DNA of 64,000 nt from positions 124,001 through 188,000 of the forward strand of contig JAOASC010000026.1 in NCBI GenBank assembly GCA_025210295.1, given 5' to 3'. Below are positions 49,408 to 59,953 of this stretch, piece by piece (the first letter of the stretch is position 1; each line of letters begins with the position of its first letter). The notes beneath the pieces are model-generated. The model did not search any database. It had not been told where the DNA came from and saw only the letters and a list, made by a program, of their open reading frames with translations. Origin of the DNA: Flavobacteriales bacterium (GTDB lineage Bacteria; Bacteroidota; Bacteroidia; Flavobacteriales_D; Parvicellaceae). The position numbers were made by a program, and so were the translations under genes.

Positions 49408-51942
49408 ATGAAATCTATAATTTTAACGCTTATTTCATTTCTTATATCATGGTTTACATTTGCAGGAGATGTAACACTTAATCAAGCTTTAGCAGTAGCA
49501 AAAACACATTTTGCCCAAGAGAAAAGGATGAATTTAAGTACTGTGAATGTTCATTTAGCAACTCAAAAAAACTATATAGATGTTGCTGGAGTTCAGCATG
49601 TAGCTTATTATGTCTTAAATGTAAACCAAAATCAAGGGTTTGTAATCGTCTCAGGAGATGATAAAACAATTCCGGTTTTAGGATATGTGGATCAAGGAAG
49701 TTATGATGCGCAAAAACTACCTAATGGATTGAGAAAATTAATGTTTGCTTATGCAAGGGAAGTTAAAAATATAGCCCAAGATTATCATATTACCACAACA
49801 GCATCTATTCGTAGCCAATGGCAAGATTTAGCTAATGGAGTTATCGCTCAAAATAGAGCAAGTAGTGTTAGTCCATTGTTAACGACCGAATGGAGTCAAT
49901 CTTCTGGAGGATATAATTTATTTTGCCCTACAGGAACACCAACAGGTTGTGTTGCAACGGCTACAGCTCAAATTATGAAGTATCATAACCACCCTGCTCA
50001 AGGAAATGGTTCTCATTCATATAACCATACAGATTTTGGAACGCTTTCAGCTAATTTTGGAGCAACAACTTATGATTGGGCAAATATGCCTAATTCATTG
50101 TCTGGTTCACCAACGCAAACTGAAAAAGAAGCTATAGCAACATTGATGTACCATGTCGGGGTTTCTTTAGATATGAATTATAGTCCAGGAAGTAGTGGGG
50201 CATTTAGTCGTTTAGTTCCAGATGCTTTAAAAGATCACTTCTCTTACGATAATAGTGCACAATTTATTAAAAGAAGCTATTATTCATTAACGTCATGGAA
50301 GAATAAATTAAAAACAGAATTAGATGTCGCTAGACCAGTTTATCACAGTGGTTTTTGTGCTAATCCACAGGCAGGCCATGCTTTTGTAATTGATGGTTAC
50401 GATACCGACGATAAATTCCATGTGAATTGGGGATGGGGTGGATATGCTGATGGTTATTTTGAGATTAACAACTTAAACCCAGGGTCAACTTATACTTTTA
50501 ACGATACGCAAAGTGCAATTATTAAAATTAAACCATTGGCAAATAATGTTGATGTGAGAATGTTTGGTGATATTATTGTCGCTCCTACAACTATTCCATT
50601 TAATGCTCCATTTACAGTTACAGCAGATATTGCAAATTATGGAAATGTCACTTATAGCGGTTCTGTCAAAGCTTCTTTATTCGATTTAAATGATGCCTTT
50701 GTAGGAAATGTTGAATTGCTAACTAATGTCACAATCGCGTCGAATGACTATGCTTCTTTGACTTTCTCTTCAACAGGGATGAATGTCCCTCCAGGGAATT
50801 ACAAATTAGGAATTTATGTTCAAAATACAGCTAACAGTACTTGGATGTTGGCTTCACCAGACGGCTTTACCAATCCTTTAGGTGTTTCGATTAATGGAAC
50901 GAATCCGCAAGGATTATTATCTAATGGTAATATTTTGGTAAACCCAGATCCAATCGAAAAAGATCAGCCTTTTCAGATAGAGTTTGATATTTTAAACAAC
51001 AGTGCTTTAGATTTTAATGGAGAAATTTCAATCGACTTACATGAACTAAATGGAGATTGGGTTACAGAAGTTCAAGGTGGAACATATTCAATCTTGGCAA
51101 ATGCTTCAGAGCACATTGTATACAATCATACAGGTTTAGACAATGATCCAGGAAGTTATAAATTCGTTATTTGGCATAAACCAAATGGAGGGAGTTGGGA
51201 AATCATAGCCGATGGAAATTACCCCAATTCGATTACCGTTGATATTGTAGGGTTGAACTTTTCAGTTAATGTGCCAGATATGTACGAAAACAACAATTCA
51301 GAAGCTATGGCCTATGAAGTCCCAGTGTCGTGGACACAAGATGAATTTACATTTTTATCTTCTACTTCAAATATACATTCGGTAACTGAGGATAGTAACG
51401 ATTATTATAAGTTTGAATTAGAACCAGGATATGAGTATACTGTTTATACAAGAGTGCATGATAATTACAGTTCATTAACTGGAATGTATACGAATGATGT
51501 GGTGTTTAAAGTTTATAATGGAACTAATTGGTCTAATTTTTATGATGATGGTGAGATGGATACCATTACCATTACGAACAATACAGCCACAAGTAAGTAT
51601 CTATTAGTTGATGTTGTACCATTTTTCTACAATGACTTAGGGACATACGACTTAGAAGTAAGTGTACAAAGAGCAGGTTTTGTTTCCATTGTTGAAGAAA
51701 ATTCAGTTGAGGTAACGGTCTATCCCAACCCTGTTTCAGAAGTTTTAAACATAGCTCTAAATGGTAACGTTGTGAGTGAAGTTACTTTAACATCAGCAGA
51801 AGGAAAGGTTATTCGTAAAGAAAATACACTTCAAGGAGAGTCTATACAGATGAATTTATCTGATGTATCAGAAGGTATTTATTACGTTAATATATTTGAT
51901 GGAAATACAGTGCTAACAAAGCAAGTGAATGTTGTAAAGTAA
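49408..51942 (+). CDS. Secreted C10 family cysteine peptidase (streptopain-like) with T9SS type A sorting domain
   Basis: An 844-residue secreted protease precursor. Signal peptide (KSIILTLISFLISWFTFA), then an inhibitory propeptide of the Spi type (about residues 20-145), then the C10 catalytic domain: nucleophile Cys181 in PTGCVATATAQIMKYH, His324 in AGHAFVIDGYD, and the conserved NWGWGGYADGYF segment. Two or three Ig-like/CARDB-type domains (about 380-610) and a pre-peptidase-like domain (about 620-750) follow before the type A T9SS sorting domain (VYPNPVSEVLNIAL to TKQVNVVK). The propeptide should keep the enzyme inactive until export. Related to Porphyromonas and Bacteroides C10 proteases such as PrtT in layout. 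Confidence 0.92.
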   Translation: MKSIILTLISFLISWFTFAGDVTLNQALAVAKTHFAQEKRMNLSTVNVHLATQKNYIDVAGVQHVAYYVLNVNQNQGFVIVSGDDKTIPVLGYVDQGSYDAQKLPNGLRKLMFAYAREVKNIAQDYHITTTASIRSQWQDLANGVIAQNRASSVSPLLTTEWSQSSGGYNLFCPTGTPTGCVATATAQIMKYHNHPAQGNGSHSYNHTDFGTLSANFGATTYDWANMPNSLSGSPTQTEKEAIATLMYHVGVSLDMNYSPGSSGAFSRLVPDALKDHFSYDNSAQFIKRSYYSLTSWKNKLKTELDVARPVYHSGFCANPQAGHAFVIDGYDTDDKFHVNWGWGGYADGYFEINNLNPGSTYTFNDTQSAIIKIKPLANNVDVRMFGDIIVAPTTIPFNAPFTVTADIANYGNVTYSGSVKASLFDLNDAFVGNVELLTNVTIASNDYASLTFSSTGMNVPPGNYKLGIYVQNTANSTWMLASPDGFTNPLGVSINGTNPQGLLSNGNILVNPDPIEKDQPFQIEFDILNNSALDFNGEISIDLHELNGDWVTEVQGGTYSILANASEHIVYNHTGLDNDPGSYKFVIWHKPNGGSWEIIADGNYPNSITVDIVGLNFSVNVPDMYENNNSEAMAYEVPVSWTQDEFTFLSSTSNIHSVTEDSNDYYKFELEPGYEYTVYTRVHDNYSSLTGMYTNDVVFKVYNGTNWSNFYDDGEMDTITITNNTATSKYLLVDVVPFFYNDLGTYDLEVSVQRAGFVSIVEENSVEVTVYPNPVSEVLNIALNGNVVSEVTLTSAEGKVIRKENTLQGESIQMNLSDVSEGIYYVNIFDGNTVLTKQVNVVK

Positions 51943-52638: not shown

Positions 52639-55275
52639 ATGGCAACTAAAACAGCTAAGAAATCAACAAGTAAATCAAAAAAGGTAACTCCTTTGATGCA
52701 ACAATACAATCAAATTAAGTCGAAGTATCCAGATGCTTTATTGTTGTTTCGTGTAGGGGATTTTTATGAGACTTTTGGTCAGGATGCTGTTGTGGCTTCT
52801 AAAATTTTGGGAATTGTTTTAACAGCTCGAAATAACGGAGGATCAAATTTAGAGTTAGCCGGCTTCCCTCACCATTCGCTTGAAACGTATTTACCTAAGC
52901 TAGTTAGAGCTGGTCAACGTGTAGCGATTTGTGATCAATTAGAAGATCCAAAACAAACCAAAAAAATAGTAAAACGTGGGGTTACTGAATTGGTAACTCC
53001 AGGAGTTGCGTTTAATGAACAAGTGCTCGAAAATAAGAAAAACAACTTTTTAGCGGCTGTACACTTCGATAAGAAGCAAGTAGGGGTAGCGTTTTTAGAT
53101 GTTTCAACTGGTGAGTTTCTGGTAGCAGAGGGTGAAGCGAGCTATATTGATAAGTTATTACAGGGGTTTAATCCAAGTGAAGTTTTATTTCAAAGGAATA
53201 ACGATAAAAGAATTATTGAAAATTTCGGTGATAAATTTTACACTTATAAATTGGAGGATTGGGTTTTTACAGATGATTATAGCCAAGAAACCTTGCTAAA
53301 ACATTTTGGAACAAATTCATTGAAAGGGTTTGGGGTAGAAAACCTAACGACCGCAATTGTCGCTGCTGGAGCTGCTTTACATTATTTAGCAGATACACAG
53401 CACAGTAAGGTAAGTCATATTACGAATATTTCTCGTCTGGATGAGGACAATTATGTATGGTTAGACCGTTTTACTATTCGTAATTTAGAGTTGGTTTATT
53501 CTCATAACGAAGGGGCTACAACACTAATCGATGTTTTGGATGCTACAATTTCTCCTATGGGAGGAAGAATGCTAAAACGATGGGTAGTGCTCCCTTTAAA
53601 AGATAAAAAAGCTATAGATAGCCGTCTGGACGTAGTGCAATATTTTACAGAGCATCACGATTTTGTAGAAGATATTACGACACACCTCAAACGAATAGGT
53701 GATTTGGAGCGTTTAATATCGAAAGTAGCAGCAGCAAGAATTTCACCTAGAGAAACAGTGCACCTTAAGTATTCATTGTTAGCATTAGAGCCAATTAAAA
53801 CGTTATGTGAGCAATCAAATAATAAAGCACTTCAAAAAATAGCAGAACAGATAAATGTCTGTCAACTCATTAGTGAAAAGATTGAAAAGGAATTACAAGA
53901 TGATGCTCCTGTGATTGTTTCAAAAGGAAATGTCATTAAAGATGGGGTCAATCAAGAGCTCGATAGTTTAAGAGCAATAGCCTACAAAGGCAAGGATTAT
54001 TTATTGCAAATGCAAGAGCGTTTGATGGAGGAAACAGGAATAGGTAAGCTTAAAATTGCTTTTAACAATGTCTTTGGGTATTATATTGAAGTACGTCATA
54101 CACATAAAGATAAAGTTCCTGAAAATTGGGTGAGAAAACAAACGTTAACTCAAGCGGAACGTTATATTACGGAAGAGTTAAAAGAGTATGAAACAAAAAT
54201 ATTAGGAGCTGAAGAAAAAATTTTAGCAATAGAATCTAAGTTGTTTGAAGACTTAGTTTTTGCCATAGCTGATTATATTCAGCCCATTCAATACAATGCA
54301 TCGTTAATCGCACGATTAGATTGTTTGTTGTCCTTTGGGAAAATTGCTTTAAAAAATAATTATACTCGACCAACAATCAATGATTCGAAAGCTTTGGATA
54401 TTAGAGAAGGTCGTCACCCTGTTATAGAACAAAATTTACCATTAGGAGAGTCTTATGTAAGCAATGATGTCTTTCTAGATGATCAGTCCCAACAAATCAT
54501 TATGATTACTGGTCCAAATATGAGTGGTAAATCAGCATTGTTGAGGCAAACTGCTTTGATTACATTGATGGCGCAAATGGGAAGTTTTGTTCCTGCAAAA
54601 AGTGCTGATATAGGTATTGTAGATAAAGTATTTACTCGGGTAGGAGCAAGTGATAATATTTCGAGTGGAGAATCTACATTTATGGTGGAGATGAATGAAA
54701 CAGCTAGTATTTTAAATAACTTTTCAGATAGAAGTTTAGTCCTACTCGATGAAATTGGTCGTGGGACAAGTACTTATGATGGTATTTCGATCGCCTGGGC
54801 AATAGCAGAGTTTATTCATCAAAACCCTAAAGCAAGAGCAAAAACCTTATTTGCAACCCATTATCATGAGCTAAATGATATGGAAAATGCATTTGATAGG
54901 ATTAAAAACTATAATGTTTCGGTAAAGGAAATTAATAAAAAAATAATTTTCTTGAGAAAGCTAGTCAGAGGAGGAAGTGAGCATAGTTTTGGTATACATG
55001 TGGCAAAGGTTGCTGGAATGCCTAAACAGGTTTTAGACAGGGCAAATCAAATTTTAAAGAAGTTAGAAAAATCTCATGGTGCTGAGGAAATGAGTAACAA
55101 GACTAAAGAATTAGCAGATGAAGCTGGAATGCAGTTGAGCTTTTTTAAACTCGATGACCCAATTTTAGAACAGGTAAAAGAAGAAATCATTAACATAGAT
55201 ATCAATACATTAACACCTGTTGAGGCGCTAATGAAACTGAATGAGATTAAGAAATTGGTTGGAGGGAAAGTATAA
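52639..55275 (+). CDS. mutS: DNA mismatch repair protein MutS
   Basis: Recognises base mismatches and small loops and recruits MutL. It is 878 residues from ATG 52639; a short lysine-rich leader (about 18 residues) precedes domain I. The mismatch-wedge motif is GDFYETFG (Phe-x-Glu). The connector, lever and clamp domains follow (about 130-560). The ATPase has Walker [14 protein letters not shown] at about residue 625, the [10 protein letters not shown] segment, Walker [15 protein letters not shown] and the FATHYHEL switch. The C-terminal part ends in the family's dimer region. Monocistronic; no mutL beside it and no clear terminator behind it. Confidence 0.97.
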
Positions 55276-55366: not shown

Positions 55367-55816
55367 TTAAACGTCTTCATAATTAGGAATCCCTTTTAAA
55401 TAAGCAAAACTATTTTTTATAAGGTCTATCTTCCCACAATATGTTTGTAGCCCATTGGTAAGGACAATGTATGGAGCTCCAATTTGAGCATTGTATCTTA
55501 AAGCTTGGTGGAAAGCCTCTTGGGTAATTTTTACAGATGGAGCTTTACATTCAATAATAGCAATGGGTCTAGCGTTATTATTGAATAGTACAGCATCAAA
55601 ACGTTGCTTCAAGCCATTTACGTTGACAAGTTTTTCAACAGCTATTAATGATTTTGGGTAGCCTTTTTCTTTCAAGACATACATTAATACATGTTGTCTT
55701 ACCCATTCTTCAGGGGTTAAAACCATCCATTTTTTTCGAAATTCATCAAAAATTAAGACTTTATCTTGTTGCCTTTTTATGGAAAAATCGTATTGAGGAA
55801 AGTTTAGTTCTTGCAT
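55367..55816 (-). CDS. Stand-alone HsdR-N-like PD-(D/E)XK nuclease-fold protein
   Basis: A 149-residue cytoplasmic protein matching the N-terminal nuclease domain of type I restriction R subunits (HSDR_N_2), without any helicase. The active-site set is intact: Asp74 in QRFDAVLF, Glu89 and Lys91 in IIECK, and the supporting QxxxY motif Gln104-Tyr108 (QALRY). No HsdM, HsdS or helicase gene is nearby, so it is not part of a restriction system here. Stand-alone members of this family are widespread in Bacteroidota. It is 8 bases from the SRPBCC gene upstream on the same strand and close to mutS and holA. Endonuclease or repair function is inference. Confidence 0.85.
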   Translation of the reverse strand: MQELNFPQYDFSIKRQQDKVLIFDEFRKKWMVLTPEEWVRQHVLMYVLKEKGYPKSLIAVEKLVNVNGLKQRFDAVLFNNNARPIAIIECKAPSVKITQEAFHQALRYNAQIGAPYIVLTNGLQTYCGKIDLIKNSFAYLKGIPNYEDV

Positions 55817-55824
55817 GTTTATCT

Positions 55825-56259
55825 CTATTCTTTCTCAACAAGTTCTTTAATTTGTTGAAGTATTTGCCCAAGGCTATTTTCTGTATGACATTTATTCTCT
55901 TCATTGGAGAATCCAATTTGCTTCCATGTAAATAGAACGCGATTATTGGTTTGTTTTTCAAGCTTATAGATTACTGCGCAATAGTTTTCTGGGGTGTCTG
56001 GTAAACCAGAAAAGCCAGACCAATAATTGTATCGGATATATTCATTTTCAATGACCTCTAAAACATTTCCTTTATCTTGATACTTTTGACCATTAAATTC
56101 TCCTTCAAAACGAATTGTACTTCCAACGTTCCAATCGGATGTTGTTTGTGTACCAAATAGATATTGTTCAATTTTTTGAGGGTTTATTAAAGCATCCCAA
56201 ACAGCTTCGGGAGCTGCTTCTATTTCAATACTTTTATTGACTTTTAATGACTGGTCCAT
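55825..56259 (-). CDS. SRPBCC/AHSA1-like (START-fold) domain protein
   Basis: A 144-residue cytoplasmic protein with the activator-of-Hsp90 homologue (AHSA1) pattern: VNKSIEIEAAPEAVWDALIN at the front, GSTIRFEGEFNGQKYQDKGNV and YIRYNYWSGFSGLPDTPENY in the middle, and a long C-terminal helix (LGQILQQIKELVEKE). The fold has a hydrophobic pocket that binds small lipophilic ligands; the ligand is unknown. It lies 8 bases upstream of the nuclease gene and is probably co-transcribed, though a functional link is uncertain. Confidence 0.85.
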   Translation of the reverse strand: MDQSLKVNKSIEIEAAPEAVWDALINPQKIEQYLFGTQTTSDWNVGSTIRFEGEFNGQKYQDKGNVLEVIENEYIRYNYWSGFSGLPDTPENYCAVIYKLEKQTNNRVLFTWKQIGFSNEENKCHTENSLGQILQQIKELVEKE

Positions 56260-56310
56260 GGTAAGAATTTTTTAGCATTTAAAATTAAACAAATATTTGA
56301 ATAGGAGGAT

Positions 56311-57507
56311 TTATTGGTCTTTAAACTTAAAGCCTTTTTCATTTGCAGATTTCTTAATTGCTTCCAGCATAGAGTTTTCTAAGGAGTTTTCTTTATTCGT
56401 TGTTTTTTGTTGTTTAGTTATAAATGCCTCTCTCTTTTTTCCGAGCTCTTGAATTTGTTTTTTGAAAATGTTTCTTTTTCTCAAATTACCCAATAAGAAA
56501 GCTTGTTGTTCTTCTAAACTCATCTTCTGCATGATTTCTGGAAGTTCATCTTTACTTAAAGTGTTAAGAATGGTGGAGTCTTCTTCCATTTTGTCAATAA
56601 GGTCCCAGTTGGTGTTTTTATACATTTTGGAAGTTTTTGAAATGGTACGCGCTACATTATTTTCCATGCTATAGGATGTCGCGTTTAAGTCTTGTCTTTT
56701 TTGTTTGTCAGAAAAGGTAACCCAATGTTTCCCATATCCAATATAGGTGCTGTTTAATGAGTCATTAAGCGAACTAATCTGTACATCAAATGGAGAAGCA
56801 ATATACGTGGTTGTTTGGTCCATATCAATATTAAGGTATTCTCCTCCTGTGATGCGAGCTCCGTCTTCCCATCCAGTTGTTTTTCCATCAAGGTAATCAC
56901 CACAGTAGATTGTATTGATGATTATATTTTTTTCTTTAGCATTCGCGCAAGCCTTTTCGAAGTTGATCGGACCTTGAGTAAAGGTTTCATTTCCCGCTAT
57001 AAAAATGGCATTTAATCCATCTTGTTTTTGTCCCCATTCTAATTGATTGATTGCTGACTGGATGACGTATCCACAATATTCACTTCCTCCATTTGTTTTT
57101 AGTTCAAATAATCTTTCAGAAATTTCATCTAAATCATTGGTTAATGGTGCGATTTGCCTAACGAATCCATCAGTCACGACTAAATGATCATTACCATATT
57201 CATATAAAGCAATTTTAATAGCAGCTTCCTCTCCTTCTTTATTAGCTTTTGTTAGTTGATTGATTATTTTCCAAAGCTGAGATTTTGCTTGTTCAATTAA
57301 GCCATCCATACTGTTGCTGGTGTCTAGCAATAATGCGATGTTAATAGTCTTAGAGCTTCCCGAAGTCACCGTTTCAGCAGTTTCGCTGGTGTCTTTTGGT
57401 ACTGTGCTAATGTTTTTATCGGTTGTATTTTTACATGCGGATAGAAGAAGAATGCCAGATAGAAAAAACAGGTTGATTATTTTCAATGTTTGATAGCTTT
57501 TTATCAT
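56311..57507 (-). CDS. von Willebrand factor A domain lipoprotein
   Basis: A 398-residue lipoprotein (lipobox LLSAC, Cys25). The vWA domain (about residues 54-245) has a complete MIDAS metal site opening DTSNS (Asp62-Ser66) and the following LIEQAKSQLWKIINQL helix; the later TNGGSEYCGY and AGNETF segments supply the other MIDAS positions. A C-terminal helical, lysine/glutamate-rich part follows (about 290-398, EEQQAFLLGNLRKRNIFKKQIQ). A metal-dependent protein-interaction function at the envelope is inferred. It is the first gene of a possible three-gene minus-strand group with the SRPBCC and nuclease genes (51-base gap). Confidence 0.85.
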   Translation of the reverse strand: MIKSYQTLKIINLFFLSGILLLSACKNTTDKNISTVPKDTSETAETVTSGSSKTINIALLLDTSNSMDGLIEQAKSQLWKIINQLTKANKEGEEAAIKIALYEYGNDHLVVTDGFVRQIAPLTNDLDEISERLFELKTNGGSEYCGYVIQSAINQLEWGQKQDGLNAIFIAGNETFTQGPINFEKACANAKEKNIIINTIYCGDYLDGKTTGWEDGARITGGEYLNIDMDQTTTYIASPFDVQISSLNDSLNSTYIGYGKHWVTFSDKQKRQDLNATSYSMENNVARTISKTSKMYKNTNWDLIDKMEEDSTILNTLSKDELPEIMQKMSLEEQQAFLLGNLRKRNIFKKQIQELGKKREAFITKQQKTTNKENSLENSMLEAIKKSANEKGFKFKDQ

Positions 57508-57672: not shown

Positions 57673-58446
57673 ATGAAAACAAAAGAAGAAATTGTAAATA
57701 ATTGGTTGCCAAGATATACAGGGGTAGAGTTAGAGGACTTTGGAAAAACAATTCTATTGACCAATTTTAATAATTATGTAGAATTATTTGCTCAAAAGTA
57801 TGGCGTTGAGATTGATGGTAAAAACAAGGCGATGCCAAGTGCAACAGCAGATGATATTACCATTATTAACTTTGGAATGGGTGCTGCAAATGCTGCAACA
57901 ATTATGGACTTGTTGGGAGCAATAAGACCTAAAGGTGTTTTATTTTTAGGGAAATGTGGAGGCTTAAAAAAGAAGAATAAAATAGGGGATATGATCTTAC
58001 CTATTGCCGCTATCAAAGGAGAAGGGGCTTCCAATAATTACTTTCCTGTTGAAGTACCAGCCTTACCAGCTTTTAATTTGCAAAGGGCTGTTTCACACGC
58101 TACTAGAGAGCACGATTTAGATTATTGGACAGGAACTGTTTATACAACAAGTAGAAGAGTTTGGGAGCACGATAATAAATTTAAGAAGTACTTGCGTAAA
58201 ATTAGAGCAATGGCTATCGATATGGAAACTTCAGCAATTTTTACAGGAGGTTTTGCCAATAAAATACCTGCAGGAGCTTTGTTGCTAGTTTCAGATCAAC
58301 CAATGGTTCCTGAAGGCGTAAAAACCGATAAAAGCGATAACAGTGTAACGGCTAATTTTGTTGAAAAACACATCCAAATTGGAATAGATGCGCTTAAAGA
58401 AATTATGAATAAAGGAGAGACAGTAAAGCATTTACGCTTTATGTAA
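57673..58446 (+). CDS. amn: AMP nucleosidase
   Basis: Cleaves AMP to adenine and ribose 5-phosphate, adjusting adenylate pools. The 257-residue sequence (NNWLPRYTGVELEDFGKTIL start, INFGMGAANAATIMDLLGA, LFLGKCGGLKKKNKIGD, MAIDMETSAIFTGGFANKIP, LLVSDQPMVPEGVKT) fits the short Bacteroidota amn group of the phosphorylase/nucleosidase fold, which lacks the extra N-terminal domain of the E. coli protein of about 480 residues. The METSA glutamate is the expected substrate-binding residue. It is followed after 20 bases by a membrane protein and then holA. Confidence 0.92.
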   Translation: MKTKEEIVNNWLPRYTGVELEDFGKTILLTNFNNYVELFAQKYGVEIDGKNKAMPSATADDITIINFGMGAANAATIMDLLGAIRPKGVLFLGKCGGLKKKNKIGDMILPIAAIKGEGASNNYFPVEVPALPAFNLQRAVSHATREHDLDYWTGTVYTTSRRVWEHDNKFKKYLRKIRAMAIDMETSAIFTGGFANKIPAGALLLVSDQPMVPEGVKTDKSDNSVTANFVEKHIQIGIDALKEIMNKGETVKHLRFM

Positions 58447-58948: not shown

Positions 58949-59953
58949 ATGACATACGAAGAGGTATTTAAAGAGTTAAAGCAAAAGGTTTATAAACCGA
59001 TTTACTTTTTACAAGGGGAAGAGTCTTATTTTATTGATAAGATATCAGATTATATTGCTCACCATGTTTTAGATGAATCTGAACGAGATTTTAATCAAAC
59101 GGTTGTCTATGGCCGAGATACAACTATCCAAGATATTGTAAACATGGCTAAGCGTTATCCGATGATGAGTGAATATCAAGTGGTAATTGTTAAGGAAGCA
59201 CAAGACCTTTCTCGTTCGGTTGAAAATTTAAGCGCTTATTTAGGGCAAATTATGCCATCTACAATTTTAGTGTTCAATTATAAGTATAAGAAGTTAGATG
59301 GACGAAAAGCATTAGGGAAGGAGTTAAAAAAGAAAGGTTACTTATTTACTTCAGATAAAGTAAAAGACTATAAATTACCAGACTGGATTATTAGCTATTG
59401 CAATTCAGAACATTTAGCAATTAACCCTAGAACAGCTCATATTTTAAGTGAGTATTTAGGGAATGATCTCAATAAGATTGCTAATACTCTGGAGAAGTTA
59501 AAAGTAGTAATGGATGGAGATACAGAAGTTACCGAAGAACTGATCCAAAAAAATGTAGGAATATCTAAAGAATACAACACTTTTGAATTGAATAATGCCT
59601 TAGGTGAAAAAGATGTTTATAAAGCGAATTTAATTGCCAATCATTTTGGTCAGAATCCTAAGAATTACCCACTTGTGGTAACCTTAGGTGTAATATATGG
59701 GTATTTTACTAAACTGATTAAATATCACCAATATGCTGGGCAAATTGATGATCGTGGATTAGCGCAGAAAATGGGAGTGCATCCATTTATTTTAAAAGAA
59801 TATCAAAAAGCTGCTCGTAATTATAGTATGAATAAGATTGCACGAATATTTGGTTATTTAAGACAGTATGATTTAGCATCAAAAGGGGTCGATAATGCCT
59901 CTACATCTGATGGGGAATTACTCAAGGAGTTAGTTTATAAAATTTTACATTAG
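58949..59953 (+). CDS. holA: DNA polymerase III delta subunit
   Basis: Clamp-loader subunit that opens the beta sliding clamp. The 334-residue sequence fits HolA: KPIYFLQGEESYFIDKISDY at the front (the degenerate nucleotide-binding region), YPMMSEYQVVIVKEAQDL, TILVFNYKYKKLDGRKALGK and a helical C-terminal collar domain (NNALGEKDVYKANLIANHF, KIARIFGYLRQYDLASKGVD). Last gene of amn-membrane protein-holA, followed by a strong terminator. Confidence 0.93.
   Translation: MTYEEVFKELKQKVYKPIYFLQGEESYFIDKISDYIAHHVLDESERDFNQTVVYGRDTTIQDIVNMAKRYPMMSEYQVVIVKEAQDLSRSVENLSAYLGQIMPSTILVFNYKYKKLDGRKALGKELKKKGYLFTSDKVKDYKLPDWIISYCNSEHLAINPRTAHILSEYLGNDLNKIANTLEKLKVVMDGDTEVTEELIQKNVGISKEYNTFELNNALGEKDVYKANLIANHFGQNPKNYPLVVTLGVIYGYFTKLIKYHQYAGQIDDRGLAQKMGVHPFILKEYQKAARNYSMNKIARIFGYLRQYDLASKGVDNASTSDGELLKELVYKILH

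Follow-up and report, generated by a model that had tools for sequence, protein, structure and literature searches.

The 64,000-nucleotide stretch of contig JAOASC010000026.1 analysed here (the window) carries on its reverse strand a genuine open reading frame which begins with ATG and encodes a stand-alone nuclease domain of 149 residues (Table 1). The genes around it encode a SpoU methylase, MutS, an AHSA1 protein, a VWA protein, an AMP nucleosidase of the PNP family (PNP_UDP_1), an unassigned membrane protein and HolA, and mutS is convergent with the nuclease gene. In the initial annotation the product was described as an orphan HsdR-N nuclease without a restriction partner, and this description holds: there are no restriction genes among the window neighbours, HSDR_N is the sole domain of the protein, and neither hsdM nor hsdS lies beside the gene in the window or in two annotated Bacteroidales loci.

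Table 1. Features of the nuclease locus, in window coordinates
Feature	Position	Strand	Evidence or remark
Streptopain-like C10 peptidase with Spi inhibitor propeptide and secretion-system sorting tail (Por_Secre_tail)	49408-51942
mutS	52639..55275	+	Adjacency found here and in L032 only; weak as context evidence
HSDR_N_2 nuclease (proposed mismatch repair incision nuclease)	55367..55816	-	Pfam, alignment, AlphaFold, Foldseek
Local insertion between the nuclease and AMP nucleosidase genes	55825..57507	-	Missing in the closest relative, L032
AHSA1 protein, part of the insertion	55825-56259	-	Gene neighbourhood
VWA protein, part of the insertion	56311-57507	-	Gene neighbourhood
AMP nucleosidase	57673..58446	+	Recurs between the nuclease gene and holA in Bacteroidia
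holA, DNA polymerase III delta subunit	58949..59953	+	Conserved divergent neighbour, 101/101 loci

The nuclease and its active site

The protein belongs to Pfam family PF13588 (HSDR_N_2) by its profile match, by its D...ExK and QxxxY residues and by its fold. The family profile covers residues 35-144 (3e-36, 124 bits against a curated cut-off of 25), the HSDR_N profile also matches (2.3e-8), and a profile search of the whole 4.2-Mb genome returned this gene as the one PF13588 match. Five PD-(D/E)XK residues had been named from the sequence (Asp74, Glu89, Lys91, Gln104 and Tyr108); their numbering is correct and all five are invariant in 149 of 149 aligned orthologues, so that the loss of active-site residues in homologues, which had been put forward as evidence against a housekeeping function, does not occur among them. 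E36, E37, R40, E61, N121 and G122 are likewise without variation in the same alignment, and the first three of these fall in a conserved helix motif of the family's own, P35-E36-E37-W38-V39-R40-Q41-H42.

An AlphaFold model built with 61 orthologues (pLDDT 92.8) places EEWVRQ in a helix at residues 35-50, D74 and E89/K91 in the beta sheet, and Q104 and Y108 in a helix at residues 99-112. The top Foldseek matches to the model are the nuclease domains of BsaXI and HsdR, and a comparison of the nuclease profile with the PDB returned BsaXI and the HsdR proteins of V. vulnificus and EcoR124I. Restriction models of NCBIfam and PADLOC cover the protein at domain-size parts only (NF046051, for instance, at 27 bits against 550), and in the annotated Bacteroidales records examined it bears the name "type I restriction enzyme HsdR N-terminal domain-containing protein". 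The closest relative, L032, stands at 91% identity, and with a dN/dS of approximately 0.04 in this comparison, where dS is saturated, the gene is under purifying selection.

An N-terminal LN[FL]P motif is packed confidently in the AlphaFold model and is degenerate in the smallest genomes. It resembles the motif of the Hda type, and as a clamp-binding peptide it is a weak lead. In families f21 and f23 (L122, L123, L124, L129, L130 and L138) the nuclease has a long form, in frames of approximately 300-390 residues, being prolonged at the C-terminus by about 150 residues that have no Pfam match; the complementarity described below extends to this form.

Complementarity with the MutL endonuclease

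A sample of 198 genomes across the phylum was searched both for HSDR_N and for the endonuclease motif of MutL, the latter by way of a DNA pattern encoding P[YF]xCPHGRP. The pattern was found in 92 of the 198 genomes and a reversed control pattern in none, and at all 30 pattern loci that were checked the gene was mutL with the motif in frame. The nuclease occurred without the motif in 102 genomes and the motif without the nuclease in 91, while one genome had both and four had neither (Fisher p = 2e-50, with phylogeny ignored). The single genome with both, G070, has a weak HSDR_N match inside a 759-residue frame which is not an orthologue. The genomes with neither are G009, G043, G152 and G172; in G009 (family f16, L254) the MutL metal site is degenerate and HSDR_N was not found, which would mean either that mismatch repair is in decay there or that it employs a different nuclease. 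Counted by family, 21 have the nuclease only, 13 have the motif only, and two (f22 and f32) show both states in different genera.

The relationship was also read at the level of residues in MutL proteins from 52 genomes, the metal site being defined as the D, H, E and E of DQHA(X)2E(X)4E, the C of ACxxAI, and the C and H of CPHGRP. All 32 CPHGRP genomes read, every one without the nuclease, have the complete site, and all 18 nuclease-bearing genomes read have it dismantled. The substitutions that destroy the site differ among lineages, and both groups have preserved the clamp-binding Q(x)LLFP region along with the rest of MutL. Within Bacteroidia, family f76 has a complete MutL endonuclease site and a holA region without the nuclease. 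Almost without exception the nuclease is present where the MutL site is missing and absent where it is intact, which is the pattern expected of a MutH-like role.

A proposed role in mismatch repair

Organisms without MutH depend on the endonuclease motif of MutL (PMC2965676, PMC9159922), and the lineages that have lost this motif would otherwise be left without an incision enzyme. Because the nuclease occurs in nearly all Bacteroidia, and almost exactly where the MutL site has been lost, it probably makes the first cut of mismatch repair. Reasoning from sequence comparisons, we consider it quite probable that the protein is the strand-incision endonuclease of mismatch repair where MutL has lost its own, with a role like that of MutH and no homology to it. 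It is also probable that Bacteroidota and allied lineages have repeatedly exchanged the MutL endonuclease for a separate HsdR-N PD-(D/E)XK nuclease and have retained MutL as a clamp-bound, non-catalytic activator.

In the mechanism that we propose, MutS would detect the mismatch, as expected from its family, and MutL would then be loaded and, by way of the Q(x)LLFP motif that it has conserved, would touch the replication clamp. MutL, non-catalytic after the loss of its metal site, would recruit or activate the HSDR_N nuclease, which may nick the new strand with its invariant residues D74, E89 and K91 together with Q104 and Y108, and the nick would lead to excision and resynthesis. The nicking activity, the interaction with MutL and the choice of strand are all predicted features of this scheme.

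The same step is filled by MutH in E. coli and by the C-terminal domain of MutL in most other bacteria. The proposed role, incision where MutL has no endonuclease site, is shared with MutH, which is a monomeric, restriction-endonuclease-like nicking enzyme (PMC2965676). In a comparison of profiles with hhalign, however, no homology between MutH and the nuclease was detectable (probability 0.05%), and membership of the MutH family was rejected on this basis; PF13588 sits on another branch of the PD-(D/E)XK superfamily, and there is here no known GATC/Dam logic. The MutL C-terminal endonuclease (DQHA(X)2E(X)4E, ACxxAI and CPHGRP) would perform the same step and is almost mutually exclusive with the nuclease; here a protein of its own would carry the activity, and all that MutL retains are the parts for ATPase, dimer formation and clamp binding. 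The nuclease domains of HsdR (EcoR124I, 2w00; V. vulnificus, 3h1t) and of BsaXI (8w0p) share the fold and the D...ExK and QxxxY residues, but the protein described here is without helicase, methylase and specificity parts and is a chromosomal core gene product with its own PEEWVRQ motif. It cannot be classed as a type I HsdR, as no SF2 helicase or translocase domain is fused to its 149 residues and the loci examined have no hsdM or hsdS partners. A further comparison is with non-canonical mismatch repair, another replacement of standard mismatch repair parts in prokaryotes (PMC5290159). This pathway, that of NucS/EndoMS, runs without MutS-MutL, whereas both MutS and MutL are kept here.

The textbook rule that bacteria without MutH have an endonuclease within MutL fails for the sampled Bacteroidia outside f76, and a gene so far annotated as a scrap of an HsdR N-terminus can be named as the likely substitute. 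If the proposal is true, MutH and the MutL endonuclease are joined by a further means of initiating MutS-MutL mismatch repair, and it bears on which enzyme incises in the mismatch repair of Bacteroidota and on how the new strand is chosen. Among open-access titles and abstracts there was no paper on the function of this protein, nor one on the loss of the MutL site in Bacteroidota.

Gene neighbourhood

The initial annotation had pointed to mutS beside the nuclease gene and to holA within 4 kb of it, and had suggested that synteny with either be compared across Bacteroidota. The adjacency to mutS is true of the window but is shared only with L032, and conserved mutS synteny was rejected; mutS or mutL lies near the nuclease gene in the window, L032 and L035 only, and the gene context does not point to mismatch repair. 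The link to mismatch repair, an idea which the unconserved mutS adjacency had prompted, is strongly supported by the independent result on MutL. Synteny with holA is conserved. In Bacteroidia the nuclease gene and holA are divergent in 101 of 101 loci that have both, and are mostly adjacent or separated by the AMP nucleosidase gene. The window departs from this order by the insertion listed in Table 1, and L032 has the plain order without the AHSA1 and VWA genes. In L032 a YefM/YoeB-like toxin-antitoxin pair (L032:10574-11106) is inserted between the nuclease gene and mutS.

This arrangement, which survives even in genomes of 345 kb and 490 kb, is what would be expected if the protein were a replication nuclease that works through HolA with the clamp loader, acting for instance on stalled forks or on Okazaki ends, with the divergent promoter serving co-regulation. 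We regard this as unlikely. No holA neighbour was seen outside the class, family f76 has holA without the nuclease, and genomes of 0.6 Mb in family f122 (g287) keep the nuclease although holA was not found in them with PF06144; in these, trxB abuts the nuclease gene exactly where the 345-kb relative has holA. The complementarity with the state of the MutL endonuclease would also be left unaccounted for. In the 345-kb genome the holA beside the intact nuclease gene is split into two overlapping short frames (L193:7333-8240), which suggests that it is frameshifted or decaying.

Shared ancestry or correlated evolution

Both traits cluster strongly by family, and the complementarity could be an artefact of shared ancestry if two unrelated traits had, by chance, made a few switches on the same deep branches. 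Changes were counted on a tree built from the N-terminal domains of MutL, from which the columns of the trait itself were excluded, and each trait requires about five. There are approximately four phylogenetically independent contrasts, about three of them in the opposite direction and none in the same, a number with which a sign test cannot reach 0.05. A model of correlated evolution was nevertheless preferred to independence (likelihood ratio 29.5, 4 df, p = 6e-6, on the MutL tree with 20 tips chosen as motif-bearing), families f22 and f32 contain switches, as does the base of the class, and the metal site was destroyed by different substitutions in different lineages. Chance coincidence is on these grounds a poor explanation, to which we give little credence, and the functional replacement of the MutL endonuclease by the nuclease remains preferred.

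Reduced genomes as natural deletions

Presence in reduced genomes had been proposed as an indication of a housekeeping function, and was found throughout. Family f122, with genomes of endosymbiont-like size, has the nuclease in 30 of 30 genomes, one of 345 kb and 29 of approximately 0.6 Mb, the latter presumably Blattabacterium from their appearance. The copies that were read have an intact active site, and dN/dS is approximately 0.1-0.3 in unsaturated pairs. The 345-kb genome (G562) has lost RecA and retains RuvC, MutS, MutL and the nuclease, and a single-sequence search of this one genome returned no MutH homologue. Three of the 0.6-Mb genomes (G642, G572 and G716) retain RecA, MutS and the nuclease; MutL was found in both of the two tested, and neither RuvC nor holA (PF06144) was detected in the three. 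RecA, RuvC and holA are thus each lost beside a retained nuclease, which depends on none of them and occurs with MutS-MutL.

These losses bear on the possibility that the protein is a recombination or Holliday-junction nuclease, as might be thought of a small PD-(D/E)XK endonuclease that is part of the core and is kept in reduced genomes. Such a role is very unlikely, since the nuclease persists in the 345-kb genome without RecA, co-occurs with RuvC in several genomes, and among the genomes tested follows the active site of MutL, not RuvC or RecA. The mismatch repair role fits the set of genes that these genomes have kept.

Distribution and inheritance

The nuclease was found in 375 of 395 Bacteroidia genomes and in 329 of the 339 that are near-complete (97%), nearly always as one copy; in the order searched around G134 it was present in 153 of 154 near-complete genomes. 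Family f76 is the only sampled family of the class consistently without it. In G545 (f93), an assembly of 30 contigs, holA and the nuclease are both missing and the MutL site is dismantled, and the double absence probably reflects a gap in the assembly at the holA locus. Protein distances of the nuclease track those of HolA (r = 0.89, a value that none of 500 Mantel permutations reached), and the resolution of the nuclease gene tree is too poor to separate transfer from parallel retention. The gene belongs to the core genome of Bacteroidia, as a single copy that is inherited vertically. The patchy distribution linked to mobile elements that would mark a mobile or defence gene, and that had been named as evidence against a housekeeping role, is not seen, and the view that the protein is a housekeeping nuclease of repair or replication, and not of restriction, is supported by its core distribution, vertical descent and invariant active site.

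An orphan restriction or defence nuclease left over from a type I system, as the HSDR_N_2 domain, the relationship to BsaXI and HsdR and the domain-level PADLOC matches might suggest, is most improbable and is largely refuted by this distribution, the gene being mostly single-copy and vertical with no restriction-modification neighbours, and kept under purifying selection in genomes the size of those of insect symbionts.

Copies on plasmids and phages are very few. The two full-length annotated plasmid matches (PLSDB; NZ_OY725779.1 and NZ_OY725929.1, from TSDC17.2-1.1 strains) contain holA, nqr or trmD, share the AMP nucleosidase-holA neighbourhood with chromosomal loci, and look like chromosome fragments filed as plasmids. 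An origin in a restriction system or mobile element was rejected on the distribution, on the vertical descent and on the chromosomal nature of these records.

Relatives on phage or viral contigs are few and distant, the exception being a record of 7.6 kb, without annotation, at 42% identity. Three viral contigs that were examined encode proteins of approximately 400-430 residues (L218:4878-6143, L219:4926-6209 and L222:4974-6176), which start with a related HSDR_N domain and keep the ECK and PEE motifs; it is possible that with these proteins phages interfere with, or make use of, host repair.
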